This document shows, one piece after another, positions 4,844 to 45,539 of a DNA stretch of 57,073 nucleotides. The position numbers and the translations under genes were made by a program. Origin of the DNA: a virus; the IMG/VR virus record IMGVR_UViG_3300036860_000377, positions 1 through 57,073 of that record, one strand, 5' to 3'. The notes under the pieces were generated by a model. That model searched no databases. It was not told where the DNA came from and saw nothing but the letters and a program-made list of their open reading frames with translations. The stretch's first letter is position 1; each line of letters starts with the position of its first letter.

Positions 4844-5277
4844 TGCGGATTGATTACTGGGGTCTGGAAGAAGAGGTGAAGGCGATCCTCGATACCGAAT
4901 TGGTCGATGGGCACGTTGATATCGAGCGCGAGTTTCAGTTCGCGAGCGAATCGACACCATGGGTCGGGATCTATCTCGATCGCCGTGACGCCCCTGCCAG
5001 TCTGCAACCTCTCGCGGCTGGCAAGCAGACGCGGATGCTCGTCCGCCTTCGCCTCGACTGCCGAGCCTACAGCCTGGAGTCGATCGCTCGGGCGAGTCAG
5101 TTCCGCGATGAACTCATCGGGCGCGTGGAAGTCGCGCTCATGAAGCACCGAGACCTGAACGGGAAGGCGACGGCGAGCTGGCTGGAGGGCGGGTCGTTCT
5201 CGCGTGTGCCTCAGCAGGACGGCTGGATCAGTGGCGGCGAAGTGATGCTCGTGGCCGACGTGAAAGCGACGACGTAA
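4843..5277 (+). CDS. Putative neck or tail-terminator protein, 144 aa
   Basis: The start at 4843 overlaps the connector stop. The 144-residue product mixes helices and strands, has no Cys or membrane segment, and lies directly before the tail tube gene, the classic slot for the tail terminator or Mu gp37-like neck protein. The assignment is mainly positional; I see no diagnostic motif. Confidence 0.6.
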   Translation: MRIDYWGLEEEVKAILDTELVDGHVDIEREFQFASESTPWVGIYLDRRDAPASLQPLAAGKQTRMLVRLRLDCRAYSLESIARASQFRDELIGRVEVALMKHRDLNGKATASWLEGGSFSRVPQQDGWISGGEVMLVADVKATT

Positions 5278-10396: not shown

Positions 10397-10873
10397 ATGG
10401 CGCGCACACTGTCAGCCACGGCCGTCGCAGCCCTCATGGCGCAAGAGACAAGTGAGGTGTTCCTCGGTCTTTTGACCTTGAGCCATCCGGATCTATCGCC
10501 GCCAATCCGAATCGTGAACGACACCGTAAACGTCACGAGCCGCGGGAATATATATATCGCATTTCCGTATCGTCTTGAGATGCCGTGGGAGCGAGACGAC
10601 GAGCTCCCGCAAGTAACGCTCGAGATCGACAACGTGGACCGCACGATCGTCCAGGCTGTGCGGGCACTCTCGGCGCGCAAGGATCTGACGGCACTCTTCG
10701 AGGTCGTGCTGGCCAGTTCGCCGGACACTGTTGAACTGGCCGAGCTATTCACTCTGCGCGGCGCGGAGTACGACGCCCTCGTGGTCCGCGGCCGACTCCA
10801 GTTTGAAGATGTCCTGAACGAGCCGTTTCCGGCCGATTCGTTCACGCCGGCCACTACACCGGGAATCTTCTGA
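10397..10873 (+). CDS. DUF1833-family tail protein
   Basis: The 158-residue product shows the DUF1833 pattern: an early TLSHPDLSPPIRIVND, then SRGNIYIAFPY, then EIDNVDRTI, and near the end a DVLNEPFPADSF stretch. This family sits just upstream of the NlpC/P60 tail-tip gene in many phages and probably belongs to the distal tail, like lambda gpL. Its stop overlaps the ATG of the next gene. Confidence 0.75.
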   Translation: MARTLSATAVAALMAQETSEVFLGLLTLSHPDLSPPIRIVNDTVNVTSRGNIYIAFPYRLEMPWERDDELPQVTLEIDNVDRTIVQAVRALSARKDLTALFEVVLASSPDTVELAELFTLRGAEYDALVVRGRLQFEDVLNEPFPADSFTPATTPGIF

Positions 10874-13800
10874 TGGTGCCCCCCTGGACCCGTGACTATA
10901 TCGGCATCCCCTGGAAGAGCAAGGGGCGCGACCGAATGGGGTGCGATTGTCTCGGGTTGGCCCGGCTGGTCTGGGCAGAGCAATTCGGCCTGAAGATTCC
11001 GTCGTACGACGAATGCTATGCGACCGCTGAGGATCTTCAGGAAATCGCGCGCATCATCGCCGCCGAGAGTGGCTCCTGGCGCAAGGTTCCGACGGAGGAT
11101 GCGCGGGCGGGCGATGGCGTGCTGTTACGGGTCCTCGGTAACCCGAGTCACATCGGGGTCGTCGTGGAGCCGCCGACATTCTTGCATGTAGCGCCGGGGA
11201 TCAACGCGTGCCTCGATGATTACACGCGCCCGCACTGGGCCAAACGCTTGCTCGGCATCCATCGCCACGAGGATCTCTTGAGTGAGGCGTCACCGGACGC
11301 TCTCGCCTCACGGGTTATCGCGCCGGCCGAGATTCTTGATCCGAACTCCACGCTCAGGAGCCTTATCCTTCCGCACCCCTTCTCGAACGAGCGCATCGAC
11401 AGGACGATCAAGGTTGGCGCCACGCTCGCAGAGATTCTCGAGGATGCCGGGTTGCCCATCGGGCCGATGCGCGGATTCTCGATTCGCGTCTTTATCGACG
11501 GCCACGGGCCGATCCCTCGAGAGTGGTGGTCGCGCATCAAGCCGAAAGCGGGCCGGATAGTTACTGCGCGCATCATCCCGGCCAATGCGGGAGGGGGTGG
11601 CGGCAAGAACGTGCTCGGGATGGTTCTGATGGTGGCCGTCATTGTCGTGGCGATCGTCGCTCAACAGTACTACGCGGTCGCTCTCGCAGGGGCGCTTGGG
11701 GTCTCGGCGGCCACGGCGAGCGCCCTCATTGGTGCCGGCGTCATCGTCGCAGGCGGCCTCCTGATAAACGCGATTGCGCCCCCTCAGACCCCGAGCCTCG
11801 GGAGACTGAGCGGTGCGGCGAGTAGTCGATCATCACTCGACGGGTCAAGCCCGACGCTCTCTATTACCGGTACGCGCAATCAGATGAGCCCCTATGGCCC
11901 GATTCCGCGCGTGTATGGTCGACATCGCATGTTCCCGCCGCTTGGGGCATCGACGTTCACGGAAGTCGTCGGGAGTGATCAGTACTTGCGCATGGTCCTT
12001 GTGCCTGGCTATGGCCCGCTGAACATCACCACTATTCAAATCGGGGACAATCCGATCCTAAACTTCCAGGGCGTCGAGGTCGAGATCCGCCAGGGTTATA
12101 GCAACGACACGCCGCTGACGCTCTACACGGATGACATACACGAAGACCCGCTCTCCGTCGTGCTCACCCAGGCCGGAGGATCGGCCATCCGAACCACTCA
12201 ATCTGATGCCGATGAGATCAGTGTCGATATTGTGTTCCCGAATGGTCTCTTCGCGCTTGCATCCGATGGCACACGCCTGCTCGCTACGGTCGCCGTCACC
12301 GTCGAATATCGTCTCGTCGGCGCGACATCCTGGACGCTGCTCGCAGAGGACGGCGATTTCAACCCCAGTACATGGGTCTCGGGCGTGTTCCGACGCGGTC
12401 GCCGGTGGACTACCAACAAAGGACAGTATGAAGTCAAGCTGACCCGGACGACGGCCGACTCAAGCGATTTGAAGATTCACGATCAAGTGTTTTGGTCGGC
12501 GCTACGGACGATCCGTCATCGGGACCCGATTACGAAGACGGGCCTTGCCAAGATCGGGCTTCGGATTAAAGCGACCGACCAGCTTAACGGTGTCGTTGAT
12601 CAACTCAACTGCATCGTTGAGTCGATCATCCCGGACTGGGATGCGGGCAGCGGGACCTGGATCACGCGCGCGACGAGCAATCCAGCCTCGATTTATCGGG
12701 ACATTCTCCAGGGTTCTGCGAATGCTAGACCGGTCGCCGATGCGCGTATCGACCTTCCGGGACTTCAGGCATGGCATGAGGCGAACGCTACGGCCGGCCG
12801 CTTCTTCAACGCCATCATCGACTTTCGGACCACCCTGTTTCAGGCGCTCCGGGATGTCGCGGCAGTCGGACGAGCGTCCTTTGCCATGAAGGACGGGAAA
12901 TATTCCGTCGTTCGTGACATCCCTCAGACAGTGCCGATTCAGCATTTCACCCCAAGGAACAGTAAAGACTTCAAGAGCACCAAGGCGCTGCCGGATCTTC
13001 CTCACGCGTTCAAGGCGCGATTCATCAACCCGAACGCTAACTGGCAGCAAGATGAGCGGATCGTCTATGACGATGGCTTCAACGCCGACGGGAGCGGCGG
13101 CTTGACGCCGGCGTCAAAGTTCGAGGTCCTCGAACTGCTCGGCGTGACGGACTCTAATCAGGCGTGGCGGGACGGTCGCTATCACATTGCGGTGGCCCGT
13201 CTTCGTCCCGAGACGTACGAGCTGATGACGGATATCGAGCACCTCATCTGCCAGCGGGGCGATCTGGTGAAGGTCGTGCACGATGTGCCGCTCTGGGGGT
13301 TGGCGTATGGGCGGGTGAAGGCTGTCCAGGTCGACGGGAGTGGCAATGCCACCGGGGTGACGGTCGACGAGATCTGCACGATGGAGATCGGGAAGAGTTA
13401 TGCGATGCGCTTCCGGCGATCGACCGGAGCCTCGGTCATGCAGCAAGTGATCACCGCCGCCGGCGAGCAGACGACCGTGACATTCACCGTAGCCATCTTG
13501 GCGGCCAGTAAGCCGGCCGTTGGGGATCTCTTCCTATTCGGTCTGCTCAATAGTGAGAGCGTGGACCTCCTCGTCCAAGGCATCGACCCTGGACCCGACT
13601 TCTCGGCGAAACTGACCCTGGTCGACGCCTCGCCGGCCGTGCACACGGCCGATACGGGCCCGATTCCGGCCTTCGAATCCCAGATCACGCAGCCAGCGCT
13701 GATCCAGCGCCAGTCGCCCGCGCCGATTATCGATAGCGTCGTGTCGAACGAAGATGTGCTGACGCGGGCCATCGATGGTGCGCTCGAGAGCCGCATCCTG

Positions 13801-32686: not shown

Positions 32687-33420
<734 letters not shown>

Positions 33421-34204: not shown

Positions 34205-35032
34205 ATGGCAGAGACAGTGATCGCGACCCGAGAGGCAACCCTGATGCGCCTCGATCCCCAGGCGCTCATCGCCAAAGCCATCGACGCTGGCGCCGGCATC
34301 GATACCATCGAACGCCTCGTCGCACTGGCGAAAGATATCCGCGAGGTGCAGGCCAAGGAAGCCTGGTACGCCGCGATGGCGGAGTTTCAGGAGACCTGCC
34401 CGACCATCTACAAGACGAACAAAGCGAACATCCCAACGCGTAGCGGTGGCGGGTTCTCATACAGCTATGCCCCGCTGGACGAGATCCTCAGCGTCGTTCA
34501 GCCCGTGATGGGGAAGCTCGGTCTGTCGGTGTCGTGGACGCATCGTTTCGAGGCAGCGACTGCGGTATCGAATTGCCGCATCTCCCACGAACTCGGTCAC
34601 CACGAGGAATCCGGCGACGTGACCATTCCCATCGACAAGAGCGAGGACGGCCGCGGGGCCAGCTCCGCGCAGCGCGTGGGCATCGCCATGACCTATTCCA
34701 AGCGGTACTCGCTACTCGCCGCCATCGGCAAGGCGCCAGAGGACGACGAGGACGGCGACGCGGGTGACACCCGTGATACCAGGCAGGCCAGCGATTCCCA
34801 GGGCGCTCGGAAGCCAGCCGGTTCGGGGAGCGGCGCCACCGAGTCGCCCGTCATCAGCGGGCCGCAGCTCAACCGTTTTTGGGCGATCGCGCGCGGGATG
34901 AAGCCTGTCGGCTGGACCGAGGAGCAGGTTCACGACTTGTTGACGGCGCATCAGATCAACCACGCGAAAGAGATCCCAGTCGTCAAGTACGAGGCGCTGT
35001 GCGACGTTCTCAAGGCGGGGCCGAAGAAGTGA
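34205..35032 (+). CDS. erf: ERF-family single-strand annealing protein
   Basis: The 275-residue product follows AGGAGA. Residues about 40-190 have the ERF pattern: AMAEFQETCPTIYKTNKAN, then SYSYAPLDEILSVVQPVMGKLGLSV, then SSAQRVGIAMTYSKRYSLLA. A Ser/Gly/Asp-rich linker and a small C-terminal helical domain follow. ERF proteins anneal single strands during phage recombination, usually with an exonuclease; the next gene is such a nuclease and overlaps the stop. Confidence 0.9.
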   Translation: MAETVIATREATLMRLDPQALIAKAIDAGAGIDTIERLVALAKDIREVQAKEAWYAAMAEFQETCPTIYKTNKANIPTRSGGGFSYSYAPLDEILSVVQPVMGKLGLSVSWTHRFEAATAVSNCRISHELGHHEESGDVTIPIDKSEDGRGASSAQRVGIAMTYSKRYSLLAAIGKAPEDDEDGDAGDTRDTRQASDSQGARKPAGSGSGATESPVISGPQLNRFWAIARGMKPVGWTEEQVHDLLTAHQINHAKEIPVVKYEALCDVLKAGPKK

Positions 35033-37544: not shown

Positions 37545-38057
37545 GTGAAATCAGACGAGCCGACCGGTATAGTTCTGGACCTCGCGCCGAAGCCGGTAAC
37601 ACGGTCCGAAGGTTCTGTGCCCCACCGCCGCGGCGTTCCTGCCCGACCGCCTGAAGAACGATTCTGGGAGCACGTCGATCAAGAGAACGCCGCGCCTTGC
37701 TGGCGCTGGACGGGGAACATCAGCCCACAGACCGGGTATGGGCGGCTCTGGTCCGCCGCTTTGGGTCGCAACGTCCAGGCCCATCAGATCGCCTACGAAC
37801 TCTTCAAGGGCCCGATCCCACCCGGACTCCAGCCCGATCATACCTGTCGCAACCGCTGGTGCGTGAACTGGGACCACCTCGAGGCCGTTACGCGCAGGGT
37901 CAACATTCTCCGCGGCGACAGCCCGAGCGCCCAGAACGCGCGGAAGACTGAGTGCAAGGCCGGCCATCCGTTCACGCCTGAGACGACTCACATCACGACG
38001 CAGGGCCGCCGCCATTGCCTCCTCTGCCGCCCTATCCGCAGGCTCCCATGTCCATGA
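37545..38057 (+). CDS. HNH endonuclease (homing type), 170 aa
   Basis: A GTG start follows the attP candidate. The pattern CWRWTG, TGYGRLW, AHQIAYELFKGPIPPGL, DHTCRNRWCVNWDHLEAVT matches the HNH_3 family: the first His of the motif in PDHTC, Asn in CVN and His in DHLE are intact. Two CxxC pairs near the end (KTECKAGH, CLLC) add a zinc site. It is probably a selfish or genome-editing nuclease near the integrase. Confidence 0.8.
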   Translation: MKSDEPTGIVLDLAPKPVTRSEGSVPHRRGVPARPPEERFWEHVDQENAAPCWRWTGNISPQTGYGRLWSAALGRNVQAHQIAYELFKGPIPPGLQPDHTCRNRWCVNWDHLEAVTRRVNILRGDSPSAQNARKTECKAGHPFTPETTHITTQGRRHCLLCRPIRRLPCP

Positions 38058-39188: not shown

Positions 39189-39400
39189 CCGACGCGTTCC
39201 GCCAGATCAAGGATGGGGCGCTTCTCCAGAGCGGGAGCGACACGGAGAGGGCCATGGCGATGCTCGTCGTGCCGGCGCTACATTACACCAACACGCTATT
39301 CCGTCCGAACCTCCTCATCAATACTGGTGAAGGTTTCTTCCTCGCTCTCACGCTGAAAGATCAGTTCATTCCCCCGACGGTCCGGCGCGAGGCGCAGTGA
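39185..39400 (+). CDS. Hypothetical protein, 71 aa
   Basis: Overlaps at both ends. Soluble protein with no motif that I recognise. Confidence 0.5.
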   Translation: MTDAFRQIKDGALLQSGSDTERAMAMLVVPALHYTNTLFRPNLLINTGEGFFLALTLKDQFIPPTVRREAQ

Positions 39401-39849
39401 TGGGTGACAAGAGCGCGATCGAGTGGCGAAAGCCTGGTCAAGCCGGCGAAAAGAATCACCAGTGGAGGGGCGGGCGCGTCATCGCCTCTAATGGTTACGT
39501 CCTTCTGAAAATGCCGGGCCACCATCTCGCCGACGTGCGCGGCTACGTGTATGAGCATCGACTCGTCGCAGAACAGGTACTTGGTCGGAGGCTCAAGCGC
39601 GGCGAGATTCCGCATCACAAGAACGGCTGGAAGCGCGACAACCGCCCAGAAAACATCGAGGTCATGTCGTCGATCGCCGAACACCGCTTTCACCATCGCG
39701 CGATCGGGTCGAAGCGCCGGCTGCCCGGAGAGGCCAATAGGATTATCCAGTGCGCTTACAACTGCGGACATGACCTGGCCCTGTTCGACGACTCCGGGCG
39801 CCCGCGGACGTTCATCAGCGGTCACAACATGCGGCGCGCCGATGGCTGA
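39400..39849 (+). CDS. HNH endonuclease, 149 aa
   Basis: The pattern KNHQWRGGR, NGYVLLKMPGHHLADVRGYVYEHRLVAEQVLGRRL (in pieces), PHHKNGWKRDNRPENIE matches phage HNH homing endonucleases; the HH and the N-x-x-x-N part of the active site are intact. A CAYNCGH near the end may bind zinc. It ends over the start of the DUF5131-like gene, whose disruption lies about 130 bases downstream. Confidence 0.8.
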   Translation: MGDKSAIEWRKPGQAGEKNHQWRGGRVIASNGYVLLKMPGHHLADVRGYVYEHRLVAEQVLGRRLKRGEIPHHKNGWKRDNRPENIEVMSSIAEHRFHHRAIGSKRRLPGEANRIIQCAYNCGHDLALFDDSGRPRTFISGHNMRRADG

Positions 39850-41089: not shown

Positions 41090-41226
41090 GCCGCACGCAG
41101 ATGTTCCCGGCACTCTTGATCGTGCTGGATCTCGGCGCGTCGGCCGTCTACGCCTTTGATGCGGACGCTCGGCGATCAGTCTACTGGCTCGCGGCGGCGA
41201 TCCTGACGTTCGTGGTGACGTTTTGA
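41086..41226 (+). CDS. Two-TM mini-protein, 46 aa
   Basis: ATGA overlaps at the start and a TTGATC start of the next gene at its end. Two short hydrophobic helices (LLIVLDLGASAVYAF and YWLAAAILTFVV). Unknown role. Confidence 0.5.
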   Translation: MSRTQMFPALLIVLDLGASAVYAFDADARRSVYWLAAAILTFVVTF

Positions 41227-43757
41227 TCGACGACTACCGTGCGTTCCTCGAGGCCAAGGCCGTGCTCGCGCCGCAGGCCGGCTTTACGGTGGAGGATGCC
41301 GAGATTCATCCGCTGCTGAAGCCGCATCAGCGCGTGATGGTGCGATGGGCGGTGGCCGGTGGACGGCGCGCTATCTTCGCCGCCTTCGGACTCGGCAAGA
41401 CCATGATTCAGATCGAGGCGGTGCGGCTGACGCTCTCGCGGATGGGTGGACGCGGGCTCATTGTGCTCCCGCTCGGCGTTCGTCAGGAGTTCACGCGCGA
41501 CGCGGCCAAGATCGGTGTCCCACTCACGTTCATCCGGCGCATCGAAGAGGCGGCGGACCCGACGGGTATCTATCTCACCAACTACGAGACCGTACGCGAC
41601 GGCAAGCTGGATGCCACCCAGTTCTCCGTCACGAGTCTCGACGAGGCCTCGACGCTGCGAGGGTTCGGCGGCACCAAGACCTTCCGCCAATTCATGCGCC
41701 TGTTCGAGGGGTCCGGGAAGTTCCGGTTCGTGGCCACGGCGACGCCAGATCCGAATGAGTATATCGAGCTGCTTGCCTACGCGGCCTTTCTCGACGTGAT
41801 GGACGTCGGCCAGGCCAAGACCAGATTCTTCAAGCGCGATAGTGAGCACGCCGATGCTCTGACGATCCATCCGCACAAGGAACGCGAGTTCTGGCTGTGG
41901 GTGTCGTCGTGGGCGCTCTTCGTTCAGCGGCCGAGCGATCTGGGATTCTCCGACGAAGGCTACGCGCTCCCGCCCATGACGGTCCGCTGGCACGAACTGC
42001 CGAGCGATCACGCGCAGGCGGGCCAAGAATCAGACGGCCAGGCCAGGATGTTCCGCAGTGCGGCCTATGGTGTCAGCGATGCCGCCCGGGAGAAGCGGGA
42101 CACGCTGCCGGCGCGGATCGAGAAGCTCCTGGCACTGCGTGCCGAGGACCCGGGCGCGCATCGCGTGATCTGGCACGACCTCGAGGCCGAGCGCCACGCG
42201 ATCGAACGGGCGATGCCCGAGGCCGTGTCGGTCTACGGCAACCAAGACCTTGGGAATCGTGAGGCCGCCATCATCGCGTTCTCCGACGGCGAGATTGCCG
42301 AGCTGGCGGCCAAACCCGTCATCGCTGGGAGCGGCTGTAACTTTCAACGGTTCTGTGCGTGGGCTATCTTTCTCGGGATCGGCTTCAAATTCAATGACTT
42401 CATTCAGGCCGTTCACAGGATTCACCGTTTTCTGCAGGAGCGGCCGGTGCGTATTGACCTGATCTACACAGAAGCGGAGCGGCCGATCCGCCAGATCCTC
42501 GAGGCGAAGTGGGCGCGGCACGTCGGCCAGGCAGAGAAGATGGGCGCGCTCATCCGGGAATACGGGCTCGCGGAGGCGGCCATCGTCGGAGCGATGCGGC
42601 GCAGCATCGGCGTGGAACGCGCGGAGGTTGCGGGCGAGATGTACCAGCTCATCAATGGCGATGCCGTGGAGGAGACGCGGGCGATGCATGACGGCATCGC
42701 GGACCTTATCATCACGTCGATCCCGTTCGCGAGCCAGTACGAGTACACGCCGAGTTACAACGATTTCGGCCATACGGACGACAACGCGCACTTCTGGCAA
42801 CAGATGGACTTCCTCACGCCGCACTTGCTGCGCGTCCTCGAGCCCGGGCGCGTCTGTGTCATCCACGTCAAGGATCGAGTGACGCCAGGTGGCTTGACGG
42901 GGCTCGGATTTCAGACTGTGCAGCCATTCCACGCTGAGGCGATCGCTCATTACCGGCAACATGGCTTTGCCTACCTCGGCATGAAGACCGTCGTGACCGA
43001 CGTCGTGCGCGAGAACAATCAAACCTATCGTCTCGGCTGGACGGAGCAATGTAAGGACGGGTCGCGGATGGGGTGCGGCATGCCGGAATATCTGCTGCTG
43101 TTTCGCAAGCCGCCGACGGACGCGACGAACGGATACGCCGACGTGCCGGTGGTGAAAGACAAGAAACTCTGGCGCGGAGATCACTGGGACCACGAGAACG
43201 GCTACAGCCGGGCGCGCTGGCAACTCGATGCCCATGGATTCATGCGCTCGAACGGGAATCGACTGCTGGCACCTGATGAGTTGGTCGGGCTCCCGGCGGA
43301 TCAGGCATTCAAACGATACCGCGAGCACTCGCGGTCAACCGTCTATGACTTTGAGCATCACGTCGCGTGCGGCGAAGCACGCGAGTCGGCGCGCCAGCTC
43401 CCGCCGTCGTTCATGCTGCTCCCGCCGCAATCATGGCATCCGGATGTCTGGACCGACGTGGCGAGAATGCGGACGCTCAATATGATGCAGGAGCGGCGCG
43501 GCCAGCAAATGCATCTGTGTCCTCTTCAGTTTGATATCGTCGAGCGGCTGATCGCGCAATTCAGCATGCCGGCCGAGACGATCTTCGATCCCTTCGCGGG
43601 GCTCATGACGGTTCCGTATTGCGCCGTGAAGATGGGGCGCCATGGCGTCGGCGTCGAGCTCAGCCCGACCTACTACGCGGATGGGGTGCGGTACGTCGAA
43701 GCCATGGCACGAGAGATCGCGATGCCGACGCTCTTCGATCTGGCGCCCCGCCCATGA
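41223..43757 (+). CDS. SF2 helicase fused to a DNA methyltransferase, 844 aa
   Basis: Residues about 30-450 form an SF2/SNF2-type helicase: AFGLGKT (Walker A, about 55-61), SLDEAS (motif II, about 138-143), TATPDP (motif III, about 173) and QAVHRIHRF (motif VI, about 394-402). Residues about 470-840 form an N4/N6 amino-methyltransferase: ITSIPFASQYEY (motif IV, about 497-508) and IFDPFAGLMTV (motif I, about 786-796) with GVELSP after it, the beta-class order. Motif IV reads SIPF where SPPY or SPPF is usual. Such fusions may track along DNA and methylate to dodge restriction. It starts at TTG 41223. Confidence 0.8.
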   Translation: MIDDYRAFLEAKAVLAPQAGFTVEDAEIHPLLKPHQRVMVRWAVAGGRRAIFAAFGLGKTMIQIEAVRLTLSRMGGRGLIVLPLGVRQEFTRDAAKIGVPLTFIRRIEEAADPTGIYLTNYETVRDGKLDATQFSVTSLDEASTLRGFGGTKTFRQFMRLFEGSGKFRFVATATPDPNEYIELLAYAAFLDVMDVGQAKTRFFKRDSEHADALTIHPHKEREFWLWVSSWALFVQRPSDLGFSDEGYALPPMTVRWHELPSDHAQAGQESDGQARMFRSAAYGVSDAAREKRDTLPARIEKLLALRAEDPGAHRVIWHDLEAERHAIERAMPEAVSVYGNQDLGNREAAIIAFSDGEIAELAAKPVIAGSGCNFQRFCAWAIFLGIGFKFNDFIQAVHRIHRFLQERPVRIDLIYTEAERPIRQILEAKWARHVGQAEKMGALIREYGLAEAAIVGAMRRSIGVERAEVAGEMYQLINGDAVEETRAMHDGIADLIITSIPFASQYEYTPSYNDFGHTDDNAHFWQQMDFLTPHLLRVLEPGRVCVIHVKDRVTPGGLTGLGFQTVQPFHAEAIAHYRQHGFAYLGMKTVVTDVVRENNQTYRLGWTEQCKDGSRMGCGMPEYLLLFRKPPTDATNGYADVPVVKDKKLWRGDHWDHENGYSRARWQLDAHGFMRSNGNRLLAPDELVGLPADQAFKRYREHSRSTVYDFEHHVACGEARESARQLPPSFMLLPPQSWHPDVWTDVARMRTLNMMQERRGQQMHLCPLQFDIVERLIAQFSMPAETIFDPFAGLMTVPYCAVKMGRHGVGVELSPTYYADGVRYVEAMAREIAMPTLFDLAPRP
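43739..43757 (+). repeat. 19-bp direct repeat, first copy
   Basis: This copy encodes the LAPRP-stop end of the helicase-methyltransferase gene plus the next ATG. The exact second copy is at 44452-44470, where it does the same for the C5 methyltransferase. Confidence 0.9.
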
Positions 43758-44470
43758 CTGTGAACGGCCCACTCATCCTCAGCATCTTTCCTGGTCTCGA
43801 CCTCTTGGGCCGCGCCTTCGAGGAGGAATGGCCGGAGGCGTGTATCGTGCGTGGCCCTGATCTCCTCTGGGGCGGGGACATCAAGCGCTTTCACCCACCG
43901 GCCGGGAAGTTCGACGGCGTGATCGGCGGGCCACCGTGTCAGTTCGCATCAATCGGGAATCGCGGCCCCAATCGTATCATCACGGCGGAGAATCTAACTC
44001 CGGAGTTAGAGCGCTGCGTGGCAGCTGCCGAGCCCGAATGGTTCCTAATGGAGAACGTCCCGCCGGCGCCCCTACCTGAAGTTGCGGGCTACATCGTCAA
44101 GGACATCCTGCTCCAGAATCGGTGGCTCGGCCAGGCTCAGCAGCGGCAACGCCGATTCTCCTTCGGCACGCACGACGGGCGGGAGTTGCACGTGCAGCTC
44201 GCGGCACTCGAATCAATCGAGCGCGAGTACGCCGTCCTAGCGACGGAGCATAAAGGGCAGACCCACCCAGGAGCGAAAGGTCGCAAGCGCTATCTGAAGG
44301 GGCGGCCGCTCTCGCGTCGGTGTGAACTCCAGGGATTGCCCGCGGATTTCGCTGACCGCCTTCCGTTTACGGACAAATGGCGCGGCATCGTCATCGGCAA
44401 CGGCGTCCCGCTTGCGATGGGCCGGGCCATCGCGAACGCCGTGAAGCGCGCTCTGGCGCCCCGCCCATGA
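43754..44470 (+). CDS. C5 cytosine DNA methyltransferase, 238 aa
   Basis: Motifs are in order: LSIFPGLDLLGRAFEEE (I), GVIGGPPCQFAS (IV, catalytic Cys about 62), MENVPP (VI, about 99) and QQRQRRFSFG (VIII, about 130). The target-recognition region is short, so the protein is small for the family but complete. It would methylate cytosine in phage DNA as a shield against host restriction; no partner nuclease is next to it. The gene is flanked by 19-bp direct repeats. Confidence 0.85.
   Translation: MTVNGPLILSIFPGLDLLGRAFEEEWPEACIVRGPDLLWGGDIKRFHPPAGKFDGVIGGPPCQFASIGNRGPNRIITAENLTPELERCVAAAEPEWFLMENVPPAPLPEVAGYIVKDILLQNRWLGQAQQRQRRFSFGTHDGRELHVQLAALESIEREYAVLATEHKGQTHPGAKGRKRYLKGRPLSRRCELQGLPADFADRLPFTDKWRGIVIGNGVPLAMGRAIANAVKRALAPRP
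44452..44470 (+). repeat. 19-bp direct repeat, second copy
   Basis: Identical to 43739-43757 and in the same position relative to stop and start codons. Together the copies bracket the C5 methyltransferase gene. Confidence 0.9.
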
Positions 44471-44858: not shown

Positions 44859-45353
44859 ATGAGCGAGGGGATCCACATCACGGCAACTTGCGAACACGCC
44901 GGGGATGGATTCGCGTGTACGGAGTGTATCGAGCAGGCCCTCAATGGACAACTGGCGGCGACGCTTCGTGTTCGCGAGGACGCCAACAAGTGGTTTCGCG
45001 CCTATCAGGAAGAGTTCAGCGAGAGCACGCGGCTCCGTTCTGAGGTCGCCCGCCTGAGCGAGGAGCGGGATCGCGAGAAGGCCAACGCGGAAGACGGCTA
45101 TCGCCGCGCGATTCAGGTGACGCGCCACGTCGGTGAGCAGGAGGCCGAGGTCGCCCGCCTGCGTGGGGCGCTCCAGGCAGTGTCGGACTATGCGACCGCG
45201 CCTTATCGACTTAACCAGCCGTGGTGCTATTGCCTCGTCTGTGATGCGCCGGCCGCTCAAGCATGGCGGGATGTCGCCCACGCTGAAGATTGCCCGATGC
45301 CCGCGGTAGACGCCGCCCTCGCCGCCTCCGACGCGGGCCGGGAGGGGACGTAG
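44859..45353 (+). CDS. Coiled-coil protein with Cys pairs, 164 aa
   Basis: GGAGGG before ATG 44859 decides the start; ATG 44832 in the same frame is the alternative. Early Cys residues (CEHAGDGFACTEC), a long coiled coil (about 50-110) and a late CYCLVC. The last residues (ASDAGREGT) are duplicated in the next gene. Confidence 0.6.
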   Translation: MSEGIHITATCEHAGDGFACTECIEQALNGQLAATLRVREDANKWFRAYQEEFSESTRLRSEVARLSEERDREKANAEDGYRRAIQVTRHVGEQEAEVARLRGALQAVSDYATAPYRLNQPWCYCLVCDAPAAQAWRDVAHAEDCPMPAVDAALAASDAGREGT

Positions 45354-45356
45354 ATG
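45323..45356 (+). repeat. 34-bp direct repeat, first copy
   Basis: The copy holds the end of one gene (ASDAGREGT-stop), a strong ribosome site (GGGAGGGG) and the next ATG. The second exact copy is at 45506-45539, 183 bases downstream. Confidence 0.95.
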
Positions 45357-45536
45357 CGAATAAAAGTAGCACCGAAAATGTGGCTACACGTCTGGATTCG
45401 CCATCCAGTCGCGCAGAAATATCAAGTCTGGCCTCGTGGCGTCTGGAGAGGTCTCGGCGCTGTGGGTCTTTCGGTGTATCGCCTTCAGGTTATGTTCACA
45501 TATCGCGCCTCCGACGCGGGCCGGGAGGGGACGTAG
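45354..45536 (+). CDS. Inserted small ORF, 60 aa
   Basis: The product is basic and Trp-rich (WLHVWIRHP, WPRGVWRGLG) and unlike its neighbours, and its first part is less GC-rich. It ends with the same nine residues as the gene before it because of a 34-bp direct repeat. The gene thus looks like a 183-bp insertion that kept the frame. Its function is unknown; a small peptide acting on nucleic acid or membrane is possible. Confidence 0.55.
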   Translation: MRIKVAPKMWLHVWIRHPVAQKYQVWPRGVWRGLGAVGLSVYRLQVMFTYRASDAGREGT

Positions 45537-45539
45537 ATG
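45506..45539 (+). repeat. 34-bp direct repeat, second copy
   Basis: Identical to 45323-45356, and supplies the stop, ribosome site and ATG for the junction with the gene at 45537. Confidence 0.95.

Follow-up and report, generated by a model that had tools for sequence, protein, structure and literature searches.

Within the virus record IMGVR_UViG_3300036860_000377, which the analysed stretch of DNA (57,073 bp, referred to here as the window) covers whole, a predicted open reading frame of 60 codons is enclosed by two copies of the direct repeat CGCCTCCGACGCGGGCCGGGAGGGGACGTAGATG, identical at 34 of 34 positions and spaced 183 bp from start to start (Table 1). Copy 1 encodes the final residues ASDAGREGT and the stop codon (TAG) of the upstream gene, followed by the Shine-Dalgarno stretch GGGAGGGG and an ATG, this tail of the upstream gene constituting the coding part of the repeat. 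In copy 2 the same ASDAGREGT and stop codon close the small frame, whose product reads MRIKVAPKMWLHVWIRHPVAQKYQVWPRGVWRGLGAVGLSVYRLQVMFTYR followed by these nine residues, and the ATG is that of the downstream gene. The preliminary description of the locus had pictured a mini-gene between exact 34-bp repeats, each repeat holding a gene end, a ribosome site and the next ATG, with the last nine residues of the small protein borrowed from the repeat; this picture is correct.

Table 1. Positions of the features discussed, numbered from the first letter of the window
Feature	Position	Strand	Remarks
ERF-family single-strand annealing protein gene	34205..35032	+	PF04404, E 4e-17
Helicase/N4-N6 methylase gene	41223..43757	+	Ends in LAPRP, from which the second junction repeat derives
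Second case, junction repeat copy 1	43736..43757	+	22 bp, agreeing with copy 2 at 21/22; exact over the 19 bp from 43739
C5-cytosine methyltransferase gene inserted in the second case, 238 aa	43754..44470	+	LAPRP tail in common with the helicase
Second case, junction repeat copy 2	44449..44470	+	22 bp, pairs with 43736..43757
Upstream gene, about 164-173 aa	44832..45353	+	Coiled-coil-like middle, Cys-containing C-terminus; start uncertain (44832 or 44859)
Junction repeat copy 1	45323..45356	+	Upstream gene's final 9 codons with stop; ribosome site embedded in the copy; mini-gene ATG
Mini-gene, predicted frame of 60 codons	45354..45536	+	No relative found
Insert core, unique, 149 bp, about 52% GC	45357..45505	+	Scanned for composition, inverted repeats, RNA, promoters and terminators
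Junction repeat copy 2	45506..45539	+	Gives the mini-gene its borrowed tail and stop; ribosome site; downstream-gene ATG
Downstream gene, predicted frame of 172 aa	45537..46055	+	No relatives found

The insert core differs from its surroundings in composition, with a GC content of 52% against 64% for the genome, and only 0.2% of windows of equal size are that low, which confirms the odd composition noted earlier and marks it as foreign. The region yielded no Rfam match, no tRNA and no promoter or terminator match, and relatives of the mini-gene were found neither in viral contigs, GTDB genomes, phages and plasmids nor in Pfam, PHROGs, NCBIfam and the PDB. The mini-gene is likely to be coding, although this is not proven, because an open frame of the same length also occurs in 14% of dinucleotide-shuffled inserts. 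The upstream gene has no significant match to a Pfam, PHROGs or NCBIfam family, its sole match being an internal stretch of 84 bp (44944-45027) that is 89% identical to positions 5005-5088 of one related locus, L023; the two genes are otherwise unrelated, and the stretch forms a mosaic patch within a coding region. Searches for closer relatives of the phage returned none by way of the terminase, and a second helicase scan of GTDB genomes gave 67% as its best value.

The first and last 127 bp of the record are identical, which a circular or complete assembly would be expected to show, and the genome is circular-looking. When this terminal repeat is set aside together with an array of 9-bp units (CGCCGACGC) at 33144-33350, which codes for an alanine- and aspartate-rich segment close to the end of a protein of 245 aa, no other exact direct repeat in the genome is as long as the 34-bp repeat. 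No further copy with up to 3 mismatches lies elsewhere in the window, none appeared in 100 shuffles, and the repeat contains no hairpin or unusual fold. Among the proteins encoded by the phage are a PD-(D/E)XK nuclease and a single-strand annealing protein of the ERF family, the latter being a candidate for carrying out recombination at short repeats.

The runner-up among the direct repeats (19 bp exact, 22 bp at 95%) surrounds the C5-methyltransferase gene 1.6 kb upstream, and this is the second case of the same architecture that had been placed within 2 kb of the first. The helicase/methylase ends in ...LFDLAPRP and its gene overlaps the start of the methyltransferase gene through ATGA; the methyltransferase ends in ...KRALAPRP, and its gene overlaps the start of the next gene in the same way. 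Conservation among homologues stops approximately where the shared stretch starts, at LFDL in the helicases and in the KRAL region in the methyltransferases, so the LAPRP tail is foreign to at least one of the two proteins.

Relatives carrying a single copy of the junction and no gene between, a comparison to which the preliminary description had pointed, were found for other cases in related loci and not for the mini-gene, neither of whose flanking genes has a relative usable for the purpose. In L107, a gene of 58 aa lies behind a C5-methyltransferase gene between 25-bp junction copies spaced 184 bp apart, and it ends in EEARRGT, a repeat of the LEARRGT tail of the methyltransferase; when the flanks are rejoined in silico, they match L002 (the same contig as L113) at 118 of 118 bp, with a single junction copy and no gene. 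The L107 case is a near twin of the mini-gene. Further pairs of filled and empty sites are L062 with L086 (89% over 160 bp) and L135 with L167 and L159 (78-80% over 148 bp). L095 and L096 are likewise filled, and in L090 and L063 the homologue of the downstream gene directly follows the helicase gene. The inserted DUF4406 gene of L095 is cut after ...RLGLRIL and continues into EAA, which is the helicase tail, and since its closest homologues keep longer tails of their own, this case points to an insertion in which the end of the newcomer was replaced, rather than to loss elsewhere.

To count how often this arrangement occurs, genes in the window and in related loci were called with a simple codon-usage caller of our own, and the start flank and the stop flank of each gene were searched for their longest exact match, which was compared with a control formed by the flanks of other genes in the same locus. 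In the window and the first loci, 20 genes are flanked by junction repeats of at least 14 bp where 3.0 would be expected, a count that includes the window from which the question arose. An independent set of 66 further methyltransferase loci gave 15 against 1.8 expected. The effect was weaker in 80 loci from bacterial genomes (prophages of cultured bacteria and MAGs), where 5 were found against 1.4 expected, and this counts against the insertion reading. Pooled, 40 genes were found against 6.2 expected among 4779 genes in 265 related loci, about 0.8% of genes and some six times expectation, in loci that had been picked for their homology to two genes and that, being related, do not represent independent events. 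The preliminary description had suggested scanning other junctions for similar duplications and had hinted at a general way in which this phage family gains genes: such duplications do occur in clear excess in the related loci, whereas the restriction to one family does not hold, the pattern having been known in mycobacteriophages since 2011.

Two counts made from other starting points agree in direction. Repeats of at least 15 bp whose two copies both lie at gene boundaries form 22 pairs against 2.0 for random positions, and neighbouring genes with at least four identical last residues number 18 against 3.9 expected among 3146 pairs. The nine residues shared by the mini-gene and the upstream gene are the longest tail of all these pairs, and the five shared by the methyltransferase and the helicase fall within the top eight. 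In the 38 unique cases the repeat spans the ribosome-site zone in 23 and reaches the start codon in 15. The junction repeats range from 14 to 34 bp and differ in sequence from site to site, as do the inserts, and the inserted genes are not significantly shorter than the remaining genes (median 114 versus 125 aa, p 0.33).

The kind of structure has been described before, although rarely. Gene 68 of mycobacteriophage Island3 is an orphan whose last 18 residues match those of the upstream gene 67, and it is missing from the near-identical phage Brujita (PMC3029335). In LRRHood, a repressor segment of 1.35 kb with four genes lies between 29-bp direct repeats, of which relatives such as Cali have a single copy; Pope et al. 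presented the phenomenon in 2011 as, by their own account, the first example in mycobacteriophages (PMC3029335). Our re-measurement of Island3 and Brujita agrees with their description in the shared gene ends and in the single copy. Like the mini-gene, Island3 gene 68 is a small orphan with the last residues and the 3' DNA of its upstream neighbour, but its repeat is about 50-60 bp long, imperfect and confined to gene ends, whereas the 34-bp repeat is exact and includes the next ATG. LRRHood resembles the window in that its insert stands at the end of a gene, enclosed by direct repeats, and in having relatives with a single copy; it differs in its four genes, its longer insert and its 29-bp repeat. 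The start-associated sequences of cluster K mycobacteriophages, with a 13-bp consensus, many copies per genome and conservation between phages (PMC3203893), share with the window repeat a ribosome site adjoining a start codon. The window repeat, in contrast, is private, extends into coding sequence and exists in two copies only, even with up to three mismatches allowed, and we rejected an assignment to this class.

In lambdoid phages, boundary or linker sequences are short repeated DNA at gene junctions that serve as places of exchange. These sequences, on which work is cited in PMC3029335, are shared among phages at the same place, whereas the 34-bp repeat turned up in no other IMG/VR contig. 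A limited literature search returned no systematic count of the junction-repeat architecture. The mini-gene site is a new and unusually sharp member of a kind already described. The earlier reports are extended here by the count of scars, about six times expectation in these phages, and by the polarity signal in the borrowed tail.

We consider it probable that a short foreign segment was inserted at the junction of two tightly packed early genes and that the junction was duplicated in the process. In a packed operon of this type the ribosome site of each gene lies inside the coding tail of the preceding one, and because of this a plain insertion at the junction would destroy either the preceding tail or the next start. 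A newcomer would be tolerated only with the junction (tail, ribosome site and start codon) on both sides, which would leave all three genes readable: copy 1 would supply its ribosome site and ATG, and copy 2 would supply its last residues and stop codon and would also provide the following gene with a ribosome site and an ATG. The likely route to this arrangement is a pair of off-register joins, one at the start codon and the other inside the 3' end of the newcomer and upstream of the same junction. Replicating phage genomes would form these joins through illegitimate recombination or through annealing at short homologies, and selection would then filter the products. Later annealing between the identical 34-bp copies could excise the cassette precisely. 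We infer the joins, the enzymes and the selection step from the arrangement as it stands, and the polarity at the mini-gene locus likewise, since no relatives of its flanks were found.

Homologous recombination could instead have occurred at a boundary that donor and recipient already shared, the donor having carried the mini-gene with the same 34-bp boundary behind it and the crossover having taken place there. Pope et al. proposed such an event for Island3 (PMC3029335), the ERF protein is encoded by the phage, and in the Pseudomonas phages L062, L081, L079 and L086 one intergenic boundary stands beside different genes. The repeats of some Pseudomonas phages resemble shared boundary sequences rather than fresh duplications, which counts against the insertion reading. 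In most of the cases, however, what is repeated is a tail private to the upstream gene and no shared linker, and the 24-bp core of the mini-gene repeat is absent from all IMG/VR contigs searched; a shared boundary also leaves unexplained why the same boundary ends two unrelated genes. We therefore hold this account to be unlikely for the mini-gene.

The reverse direction, in which junction, gene and junction were the ancestral state and the single-copy relatives lost the gene through deletion between the repeats, draws on a well-known type of deletion, and pairs of filled and empty sites alone give no direction, which Pope et al. also left open (PMC3029335). It nevertheless offers no account of the origin of the repeat, its 34/34 identity or the foreign composition, and the tail of the inserted gene in L095 is cut relative to its homologues; we regard it as very improbable. 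Had the upstream gene duplicated its 3' end in tandem as a 183-bp unit, with the middle then diverged or replaced, this would fit the spacing of whole codons and the common frame of the copies, yet the 149 bp preceding each copy are no more similar than shuffled sequence (score 45 against a mean of 51) next to 34 identical bp, so that this origin can hardly be entertained and its diverged form, with insert and copy-1-side sequence sharing nothing outside the repeat, was rejected. The record is a metagenome-type virus contig in which an assembler might have joined two strain variants at a shared junction, but the same architecture exists in the isolate phages Island3 and Brujita. Moreover, the overlap of 127 bp between the ends suggests that the final k-mer was 127, longer than the repeat; a false join should therefore not arise from the repeat alone, and an artefact is scarcely to be expected.

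Several classes of mobile element were also considered and rejected. A transposon or miniature element with target-site duplication does not fit junction repeats whose length varies from 14 to 34 bp around differing inserts, nor an insert core that has no inverted arms or repeats at its ends and no second copy in the window. Against an integron gene cassette stand the lack of a conserved attC-type site, the variation of the repeat from site to site and the absence of an unusual fold. As for a homing endonuclease element, the mini-gene has no family match, and the HNH genes lie elsewhere: two HNH_3 endonuclease genes (37617-38057 and 39400-39849), possibly free-standing homing endonucleases, occupy a span of less than 2.5 kb.

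These results bear on how phages add small genes to operons without spare DNA. Insertion with duplication of the junction may, as a tentative generalization that we put forward without strong commitment, be a general and previously uncounted route of gene gain in packed phage operons, in which private repeats and borrowed tails would make new genes exactly removable by single-strand annealing, that is, self-made reversible cassettes. The scar of junction repeat and borrowed tail makes recent gene gains detectable from a single genome, polarity included, and annotators should be aware that the last residues are not native to such proteins. The size of the excess suggests a countable process and not a curiosity.

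Some of the related loci have features of their own. In L115 (3094-7435), three genes within 4.3 kb are each flanked by a junction repeat of their own (21, 14 and 20 bp), which suggests that this one place gained genes in series. L036 (12462-13988) holds a 28-bp sequence six times, mostly at or near the starts of small open reading frames, as an array of short frames with the common N-terminal leader RPPASGEP. In L055 (14170-14819) and L195 (12190-12819), GCATAGGAGAAC is repeated ahead of successive genes as a small multi-copy ribosome-site boundary, comparable to start-associated sequences. A segment of 1.3-1.4 kb is present in the Pseudomonas phages L062, L065, L072, L085 and L086 (about 10670-12140) and missing in L068, with an overlap of at most 40 bp at the empty site. 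Finally, L186 and L188 come from JAHFTW010000006.1, a 109-kb contig binned as a Thermoplasmata archaeon that contains the phage helicase region twice; it is probably a phage contig, perhaps misassembled or misbinned.
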